Shown in pieces: positions 53,149-54,382 of a DNA stretch of 64,000 bases; position 1 is the first letter of the stretch, and each line of letters begins with the position of its first letter. This DNA is from Rhodoplanes sp. Z2-YC6860. Lineage in GTDB: Bacteria; Pseudomonadota; Alphaproteobacteria; Rhizobiales; Xanthobacteraceae. The position numbers were made by a program, and so were the translations under genes. The notes under the pieces were generated by a model. The model was not told the DNA's origin. It saw only the letters and a program-made list of their open reading frames with translations, and searched no databases. Location: positions 2,112,001 through 2,176,000 of the forward strand of contig NZ_CP007440.1 in the NCBI RefSeq assembly GCF_001579845.1. Direction: 5' to 3'.

Positions 53149-53182
53149 CCCTCTCCCCAGCGGGGAGAGGGTTGGGGTGAGC
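53149..53182. repeat. REP-like hairpin left of the IS110 element
   Basis: A 10-bp perfect stem CCCTCTCCCC/GGGGAGAGGG (53149-53158 and 53162-53171, loop AGC) is followed by TTGGGGTGAGC. It is the left flank of the IS110 element and probably part of its target. Confidence 0.75.
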
Positions 53183-53196
53183 GACTGTCTCGCGTG

Positions 53197-54129
53197 TCAA
53201 GCGATTTGCCATGGTCGTTTGTCCCGCACGATGGCGTTGAGGATAGTCAGCAGTTTTCTGGCGACTGCGATAATGGCGACCATCTTCGGCTTGCCGGCCT
53301 TGGTCAGGCGATTGAAGAAGGCCTTCAAGACCGGGTTGTGCCGCATGGCGACCATCGCGCCCATGAACAACGCGGTGCGCACGGATTTGCGACCGCCGCC
53401 AATAAAGCTCCGCCCCTTCCACTGGCCGGACTGGCGGGTGAAGGGGGCAAGCCCTGCGAGCGCAGCGATCTGTTTGCGGCTGAGCGTGCCGAGTTCGGGC
53501 AGATCGGCAATGAGCGTGCGCGAGATGATCGGGCCGATGCCTGGCACGGAGGCGAGCAGATCCTCCTTCTCGCGCCAAGCCGGCGAGCCGCGCACGCTGT
53601 CGTCGATCTCGCTATCGAGCTCGGCGAGTTCCTTCTCCAGCATGCCGATGACCCGGCGGATGCTTTTGCGCAGGCGCGACACGGCTATCCGCTTCTCGCG
53701 CTGGCTTTCCGCGCCGATCATCTCGATGATCTGCCGGCGGCGGGCGACGAGATCGGCCAGAAGCTGCGTTGCCTCGTCTGCCAAGGGCCGCGGCTGCGGC
53801 TTCGTCGCCTCCGCGAAGTGGGCGATCACAGCGGCATCGATCGGGTCGGTCTTAGCGCGCTGCCCGAGCGCCTTGGCAAAGGCTCGGATTTGGGCCGGGT
53901 TGACGACGACAACAGGAAGCGCCGCGGCAGCCAAAGAGGCTGCCACCACCGTTTCAAAGCCGCCGGTGGCTTCCAACGCAATAATCCCCGGCGCCAGGGC
54001 CCGCATCCGCTCGATCAACCGACCCACGCCGGATGCATTGCGCGTCACCACAAACAGCTCCCCACCGGGGCGCACAGCCACGTCCAGGCGGTCTTTCGAG
54101 ACGTCGATACCGACAGCGATGATGTCCAT
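53197..54129 (-). CDS. IS110-family transposase (DEDD serine recombinase)
   Basis: The 310-residue protein ([28 protein letters not shown]) is intact. The N-terminal RuvC-like DEDD domain has Asp9, Glu53, Asp95 and Asp98 (GID, ALEATGG, TDPID). The C-terminal Tnp domain ([46 protein letters not shown]) has the conserved Ser234 of the SG motif that acts as nucleophile in this family. IS110 recombinases such as IS621 work with a structured bridge RNA from the element's non-coding end that pairs to both donor and target DNA. An open frame continuing upstream to 55389 is antisense to the TctC gene and is rejected. Confidence 0.94.
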
Positions 54130-54340
54130 GGCGACCCGTCCTTGCCTAATCGAGCTTTGCTTCTTGCGGCCCAGGCGACTGTTCGGGTTCGATGGAACGG
54201 CGGGCGGGGCGCCAAGCTCACCCACGGTCTTGCAAGACCTCGGGGTTTGCGGACACCCGCCCGTCACCGCGACCACAACTTTAGACGAGTCGCGGCTATG
54301 AGAATTACAAGGGGGCCTAACTCTTTCGATAGACCGTACC
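54130..54340 (-). ncRNA. Candidate IS110 bridge RNA region
   Basis: This non-coding stretch upstream of the transposase is where IS110-group elements encode their bridge RNA. It contains a 14-bp perfect hairpin palindrome GGTCTTGCAAGACC (54226-54239), GC-rich stems around 54181-54215 and 54241-54275, and an eight-base match, GGGTGAGC on the minus strand at 54216-54223, to the left target flank (53175-53182). Ends and folding are not determined. Whether it is transcribed is unknown. Confidence 0.5.
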
Positions 54341-54342
54341 CC

Positions 54343-54382
54343 CTCACCCGCCTCGCTTTCGCGAGGCGACCTCTCCCCATGG
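54343..54382. repeat. REP-like double hairpin right of the IS110 element
   Basis: CTCACCC at 54343-54349 is followed by two hairpins: GCCTCGC paired with GCGAGGC, then ACCTCTCCC paired with GGGAGAGGT. It is the right flank of the IS110 element and belongs to the same family as 53149-53182 in reverse orientation. Confidence 0.7.

Follow-up and report, generated by a model that had tools for sequence, protein, structure and literature searches.

An intact insertion sequence of the IS110 group, referred to below as A, lies in the window (the whole stretch of 64,000 nucleotides that was analysed, which is part of a host genome consisting of a single 8.19-Mb contig), and we consider it very probable that the upstream end of this element encodes a bridge RNA programmed for REP sequences and that the element recombines at a CT core. 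The ends of A, its core, the sites of its copies, the conserved fold of its upstream end, and the matching and covariation of guides and insertion sites are all established in this analysis. The same genome holds a paralogue, B, which resembles A in its scaffold and shares its left donor guide but has different target guides, and each of the two elements has multiplied at its own REP family. That IS110 elements insert in REPs, that they use bridge RNAs, and that a guide can be swapped in nature is known already, and A is a further member of this company; what is less expected is that the guide classes of its relatives are intermixed on the recombinase tree, and that several of these classes are REP words one base apart.

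Boundaries, Copies, and Recombinase of Element A

The first-pass annotation had placed an IS110 element at 53149-54382. The group assignment was right, but the extent was not, as the true ends are 53180 and 54311 and the rest of that interval is REP DNA. The element and its surroundings are organized as follows.

52784..53104, plus strand: NIPSNAP-family gene, convergent neighbour
53180..54311, minus strand: IS110-group element A, 1132 bp including both CT cores, with five identical copies and with empty REP sites lacking the element
53180..53181: core dinucleotide of the right end, AG on the plus strand (CT on the transposase strand)
53197..54129, minus strand: DEDD/Ser recombinase (transposase), 310 amino acids plus stop, ATG at 54129
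54130..54311, minus strand: the 182-nt left end (LE), which codes for the predicted bridge RNA
54310..54311: core dinucleotide of the left end, AG on the plus strand (CT on the transposase strand)
54414..55532, minus strand: TctC-family receptor gene, convergent neighbour

Because A is inserted between the two 3' ends of the neighbouring genes, neither the NIPSNAP nor the TctC-family gene is broken. A DNA search of the element's own genome found five copies of A together with five copies of B (about 69% DNA identity). The A copies are identical over 1132 bp and end at exactly the same bases, and the DNA beyond the REP differs on both sides of each copy; at empty REP sites, the matches to the left and right flanks overlap by 2 bp, corresponding to the CT core, with no longer duplication. 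The existence of five identical copies with differing flanks, combined with that of unoccupied REP sites, sets the ends at 53180-53181 and 54310-54311. The empty sites in question are REPs of the own genome, since no close strain with an empty A site was found in 11 genomes of the genus; at these sites the ends, which differ somewhat from those proposed, do fall at the REP edge. No full-length match to A outside its own genome was present among the same 11 genomes, four of which, the own genome included, gave a match at E<=0.001, and a search of viral contigs returned a single relative, interrupted by the contig end.

The recombinase carries the Pfam domains PF01548 (5e-22) and PF02371 (3.8e-19) and matches the PDB entries for IS621 (E 4.5e-32) and ISCro4 (E 3.9e-34) over nearly its whole length. 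Its residues D9, E53, D95, D98, and S234 align with the catalytic motifs and do not vary among 11 aligned sequences (its own included), which bears out the earlier description of an intact transposase with DEDD residues and Ser234. The non-coding ends, cores included, measure 182 nt upstream (the LE, for which about 210 bases had been given) and 17 nt downstream of the stop codon; this is the arrangement of the IS110 group, and it is reversed in IS1111.

REP Targets of A and of Its Paralogue B

The target repeat of A is made up of two palindromic units that face each other across a linker of about 30 bp, and in the window one of these units is filled by A and the other is free.

53151..53181: REP unit abutting the right end of A, CTCTCCCC-AGC-GGGGAGAG followed by GGTTGGGGTGAG
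54343..54388: REP unit forming the partner, separated from A by a linker of 31 bp and with its own CCCCCTCACCC site (54339-54349) still empty

Both ends had been described as touching REP-like hairpins, which holds for the 53180 end, where the contact is direct (GGGGTGAG), but not for the 54311 end, where the 31-bp linker comes before the partner REP. All five copies of A lie at the inner edge of a single REP family, CC|CT|CACCC, three of them in a unit that continues CACCCC and two in a unit that continues CACCCG. Among ten empty A loci that were read, chosen from the best matches of the own-genome DNA search, eight hold two CT|CACCC sites, one per strand; a REP pair usually offers two sites because the REPs of this family are mostly arranged as head-to-head pairs. 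The heptamer GGGTGAG, to which attention had been drawn as the motif of these repeats, is not unusual on its own, with eight occurrences on both strands of the window, which is about chance for a 7-mer by our own estimate under equal base use; the 10-mer CCCCTCACCC, on the other hand, is enriched, with 42 genomic occurrences compared with 2 of its reversed control. The partner REP (window 54340-54391, minus strand) also gives a sub-threshold match to the Rfam family whalefall-1 (23.4 bits against a cut-off of 37, E 0.0028).

The five copies of B (L014-L018, of which four score alike against A and L014 slightly differently) all lie in a different REP family, TCATC|CT|GAGG, the target word of which, TCATCCTGAGG, occurs 91 times in the genome against 0 for its reversed control. 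Every copy of A and every copy of B sits at one position of a multi-copy palindromic repeat, and none of the five copies of either element lies outside REPs in the own genome, an outcome in keeping with what the first-pass annotation had predicted for the genomic copies.

This distribution could also be pictured as the result of REP-REP recombination, which would have spread the own-genome copies of an element that has a real bridge RNA, with no RNA-guided insertion being involved. REPs are, after all, repeated DNA, the five A copies are identical, and in another genome the left flank of one locus (L144) is unlike both that of L146 and its own guide, as it would be in a recombinant. Each A copy, however, is bordered by different DNA beyond the REP on both sides while keeping exactly the same ends, and the empty sites show the same join, and we hold this account to be extremely unlikely; RNA-guided insertion is the reading that is followed below.

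Predicted Bridge RNA

The LEs of 37 elements, A and B among them, align well, and their consensus consists of a target loop with a covarying closing stem, a short inner stem, and the stem of a donor loop. The principal elements of this fold in A are listed below.

54133..54270, minus strand: match to R1, a covariance model of the bridge RNA from whose training set A and B were left out, with 133.6 bits and E 1.4e-29
54225..54240, minus strand: inner stem-loop of the target-binding loop, 16 nt, the same in most relatives
54267..54295, minus strand: 5' stem-loop (CCGCGAC ... GTCGCGG), z -2.5 against mononucleotide shuffles

Across 21 named pairs, 97.7% of the cells are paired and 14 pairs show two-sided changes, with none of 500 shuffles as high, and the covariation score is 0.363 compared with 0.184 in shuffles, in a test that is favoured by the derivation of the structure from the same alignment. 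When the partner is shifted by 1-3 columns, pairing falls to 34-59%. The covariance model R1, built from 31 LEs with A and B left out, recovers every one of the ten A and B copies of the host genome, with E values of 1e-27 to 1e-30. It also extends to relatives whose recombinases are 35-43% identical, where 22 of 25 loci give a hit at E<=0.1 (E 0.014 for the weakest of these hits), and to six of the eight other loci given. The alignment-based fold and R1 together describe a conserved, folded LE RNA with two loops, and the upstream bridge RNA, previously put forward as a candidate, is upheld by them. The 5' stem-loop is more weakly supported, z falling below -2 for 31 of the 60 distinct stem regions.

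Beyond the ten copies, R1 gave only one further match in the own genome (G000 3555671-3555801, L189; 23.7 bits, E 0.054), located away from the A and B copies, and hence no solo bridge RNA was seen, in a scan in which 150 of 7028 first-look candidates were scored and weak solo copies could be missed. A search of the own genome for RF02234 returned nothing at E<=0.001, and as the same was true of all 14 control genomes, this result is uninformative either way. A minimum-energy fold of the whole LE (z -2.9) yielded a long-range structure without the two loops and was set aside in favour of the alignment-based fold. An sX15 match antisense to the bridge RNA (window 54128-54275, plus strand) reached 27 bits, below the cut-off of 55, and was dropped; it is probably due to the hairpins of the bridge RNA. 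One relative, on a contig of a Microvirga MAG (L109; JAQSWQ010000044.1, 1907-1997), combines a full-length recombinase match with an LE that has no target loop, 91 nt being matched in place of the approximately 135 of relatives, which, to judge by its sequence, is a natural deletion of the target-binding part.

Guides of A and B

The layout of the guides is rigid in most relatives and consists of CCG, 9 nt (the left target guide, LTG), the 16-nt inner stem-loop, and 6 nt plus AG (the right target guide, RTG). In A, the guides are positioned as follows.

54241..54249, minus strand: left target guide region CAAACCCCG (7 plus 2 core positions), a partial match to the left target
54217..54224, minus strand: right target guide TGGGTGAG, whose GGGTGAG is the complement of CT-CACCC
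54175..54182, minus strand: left donor guide ACAGTCGC, identical to the right end of A, ACAGTCG|C
54141..54144, minus strand: candidate right donor guide CAAG, the complement of the LE start CTTG, proposed from conservation only

The LTG of A reads CAAACCC-CG and its RTG is the complement of CT-CACCCA, while the corresponding guides of B are TCTCATC-CT and GACCTCAG, the latter being the complement of CT-GAGGTC. Stated as words of the target loop, A carries GGGTGAG, complementary to CTCACCC, and B carries TCATCCT and CCTCAG; the donor loop contains ACAGTCGC in both elements, which is the same as both right ends. The candidate pairing of the right donor guide is that of alignment columns 1-5 with 171-175.

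Each set of target guides fits its own sites. The guides of A match A sites at 3-4 of 5 positions on the left and 5 of 5 on the right, and B sites at 1 position on the left and 1-2 on the right, whereas those of B match B sites at 5 positions on the left and 4-5 on the right, and A sites at 2 and 1, respectively. The left guide of A fits its own sites only partly: an A stands against C at -4 in all five sites, and in a register shifted by one base 5-6 of 7 positions fit, but the core positions are then mismatched. Filled A sites and the ten empty A loci taken from the best genome matches were barely separated by this guide, the difference being too small to use.

Guide-Site Matching Across Relatives

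The panel of relatives is capped, the best 80 of 144 from a contig scan having been retained. Of 109 loci examined for their guides, 98 were parsed and 11 were not (contig end, diverged, or without the loop); left out of the parsing were loci that are broken or cut (L050-L052, L073, and L085), those with 35-43% identity (L053-L068 and L074-L082), and further copies from two of these genomes. This gave 54 distinct guides when the left guide is taken as 9 nt, and 46 when it is taken as 7 nt and both flanks and an 8-nt right guide are required, and in the test of these 46 the first locus of each guide was taken as its site.

The right guides match positions +1 to +5 of their sites in 203 of 230 cases (permuted mean 93.3, sd 9.2) and the left guides match positions -5 to -1 in 182 of 230 (permuted mean 105.2, sd 6.9), with none of 5000 permutations as high for either half. 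The predicted register gives 0.88 on the right and 0.79 on the left, compared with 0.29-0.49 in other registers, the value of 0.49 being that of the left guide shifted by one base, which is the better fit for some elements, A included. When left guides were permuted within a right-target class, the observed 134 of 175 exceeded the mean of 112.7, again with none of 5000 as high, and as the match is lost in this permutation, the left guide apparently selects between sites whose right half is the same. The left donor guide, for its part, is identical to the element's own right end in 47 of the 51 tabulated guides, which fall into three sequence classes (ACAGTCGC in 40, ACAGTTGC in 4, and ACGGTCGC in 3), and differs in the remaining 4. 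Target guides therefore covary with the insertion site and donor guides match the joined ends, the right donor guide by conservation only. The idea that the REP is the programmed target, advanced in the first-pass annotation, gains support, in that the target loop carries the complement of the right half of the REP and this pairing covaries across relatives.

A likeness of loop and flank might conceivably arise without any function, from common composition or descent in GC-rich DNA, especially as the sites all contain CT, C-rich sites are numerous, and there is no mutual independence among the relatives. Permutation preserves composition, however, and never reached the observed match for either half, the fit drops sharply out of register, and shared descent of the element alone does not create the match because the flanks are host DNA. 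We therefore judge this origin to be exceedingly improbable.

A different proposal would be that the recombinase itself recognizes REP hairpins or cruciforms, with the match to the LE loop being incidental. Sites are indeed more palindromic than nearby DNA, with a stem score of at least 8 in 26% of 47 sites compared with 4% of 1351 control windows, and Tobes and Pareja have suggested that some transposases recognize REP palindromes (PMC1525189). Recognition of this kind does not readily account for base-by-base covariation between site and loop in one register only, nor for the use by recombinases that are 65% identical of different REP words, each of which fits its own guide; furthermore, L164 and L168 have sites that, with a stem score of 5, are not palindromic, but in both of them the right half of the site fits the guide (6/6 and 5/6, respectively). 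Hairpin recognition is accordingly very unlikely in our estimation, and programming by the bridge RNA remains the preferred explanation.

Some loci depart from the general pattern. The right half is unfit in L159 and matches at only 3 of 5 positions in L105, L143, and L151, and the left half is poor in the standard register in L047, L104, L125, L131, L167, and L172. Two MAGs (L102 and L103) contain the same element at a site unfit to its guide, possibly through rearrangement or as an old insertion. By our reading, the sites of L105, L143, L151, L154, L164, L166-L168, L172, and L173 are not visibly REP.

Proposed Mechanism

In the mechanism that we propose, the junction of a circular form would provide a promoter for the RNA, the RNA would bind the recombinase, and its two loops would bring the donor and the REP together at CT. 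The donor loop would pair with the joined ends of A (ACAGTCG|CT|TGTAA) and the target loop with the REP, where the right guide TGGGTGAG would read CT-CACCC on the top strand and the left guide, on the bottom strand, part of CCC|C. The recombinase would then connect the circular form with the REP at the CT core, so that each end keeps one CT. A TTGA[CT] box located exactly 15 nt from a TGTA box in 46 of 49 junctions, and overlapping the stop codon in A, could be the -35 element of such a junction promoter, with a spacing of 15 nt that is short for sigma-70. In many LEs, the apical part of the 5' stem-loop also contains a TAnnnT box that resembles a -10 element (TAAAGT in A at about 54278-54283, minus strand; TATAAT in L157), with no well-spaced -35 visible by eye. 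Expression of the RNA from the circle junction, the circular intermediate, and strand exchange would hold for A by analogy with what is described for IS621 (PMC11208160, PMC11208158).

Relation to Known Systems

One of the nearest counterparts is IS621 of E. coli, whose insertion in REPs is named in PMC1525189 and cited in PMC11208160, the latter also being the source for bridge RNAs with covarying guides. Like A, IS621 belongs to the IS110 group, has a CT core and a long LE upstream of the gene, and targets a REP, and its RNA resembles that predicted for A in having target and donor loops, a left guide for the bottom strand, a right guide for the top strand, and an 8-nt left donor guide (PMC11208160, PMC11208158). 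The two elements differ in that their recombinases are only distantly similar (E 4.5e-32), their REPs are different, and the right guide of A fits CT plus 5 bases, compared with 4 in all as given for IS621.

Other precedents touch on the rhizobial host and on the pairing of A with B. ISRm19 of Sinorhizobium meliloti, with four of four copies in REPs (PMC1525189), is likewise a rhizobial IS110 element in such repeats, a likeness drawn from its published description. ISPpu9 and ISPpu10 of Pseudomonas putida, also reported in REPs (PMC1525189), are two unlike IS110 elements of one genome, as are A and B, but the former pair uses the same REP position according to that source, whereas A and B use two REP families with two guides. 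A natural redirection has been published for ISEc11 and ISXne4 (PMC11187229), close relatives in which, as in A and B, the target-matching bases are replaced and the site is new; these form an IS1111-type pair, and a REP-to-REP change does not figure in the accessible part of that description. ISMex17 of Methylorubrum is a named homologue with a recombinase about 63% identical to that of A, and the Methylorubrum relatives L151 and L153 have the guide class CACTT at CT-CAATC and CT-CACTC, which are not clearly REP. In the open literature that we searched, we found no account of a genome whose two IS110 paralogues are programmed to separate REP families, and none of guides that walk from one REP word to another.

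Bridge RNAs are under development as programmable tools for recombination, yet the natural change of their targets is, in the sources available to us, little documented. The matched pair of A and B illustrates how a natural guide can come to serve a new target, dozens of relatives offer a natural panel of guide/site pairs, and there is a testable reason for the presence of IS110 elements in REPs, namely that a REP, as a landing site, is repeated, lies mostly between genes, and contains several words that are nearly identical.

Changes of Target Among Relatives

Right-target classes were placed on a quick maximum-likelihood tree of 60 recombinases, in which support falls below 80 on 17 of the 57 inner branches, with GAGC and GAGG merged and all CAG words merged. 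On this tree, at least 28 changes of class are required, a figure that depends on the tree and the labelling, compared with a least possible number of 14 for the 15 classes and with 37 for shuffled labels. The GAGG class, which includes B, is fairly stable (21 rows, 5 changes), while the part of the tree that contains A has CACC, CTCC, CCCC, and TCTC classes intermixed; the CACC, CTCC, CCCC, and CGCC classes differ by one base (CTC-N-CCC). We read the relatives as changing their target guides while tending to keep to REP words.

Alternative words were counted near the sites with the landing word masked. A CTCTCC-type word is present within about 80 bp in 6 of 10 CAC-class sites, compared with 170 of 1185 control windows (14%), and a CTCACC-type word in 6 of 17 CTC/CCC/TCT-class sites, compared with 106 of 1185 (9%), one of the 6 being L102, whose site is unfit. 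In the GAG classes, a second TCATCC or TCGAAGG word is found outside the site in 8 of 10, against 14.3% of controls. A first count of sites with two REP words (11 of 27 versus 1.1% of 1184 control windows) was rejected as unfair, since the landing word itself had been counted; masking of that word leaves a smaller excess. These data fit the view that some classes are different landings in related REPs, which is not true of most CTC/CCC/TCT sites.

A tentative extension, which we think less likely than its opposite, is that guide evolution in this IS110 clade uses REPs as stepping stones. REP arms would hold several close CT-cored words on both strands (CT-CACCC, CT-CTCCC, and CT-CCCC; TCATC|CT|GAGG, and GCTC|CT|CAGGATGAG when a repeat of that kind is read on its opposite strand), and a single guide substitution (TGGG-N-GAG, with N being T, A, G, or C) or a switch of strand could lead to a new site that is still in a REP, so that retargeting would carry little risk of hitting genes. 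If so, a change of the RTG of A from TGGGTGAG to TGGGAGAG, for example, would shift insertion away from CTCACCC at the edge of the REP and onto CTCTCCC in the hairpin arm of the same REP. The relatives agree with this in part, through the number of class changes, the use of two REP families in one genome, and the excess of alternative words, although the masked count of these words makes the idea somewhat less likely than the first count had suggested. A comparison of guide class with REP abundance in 15 genomes was uninformative, because most genomes contain the REP words together and because reversing CCCTCTCCCC gives a control word that hardly differs from it and is about equally frequent in several genomes.

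Three relatives from Reyranella and an uncultured alphaproteobacterium (L158, L160, and L161) have the guide class CAG, and the sites of L158 and L161 resemble the TCATCCTGAGG repeat as it reads on the other strand, the core lying at a distance of 3 bp.
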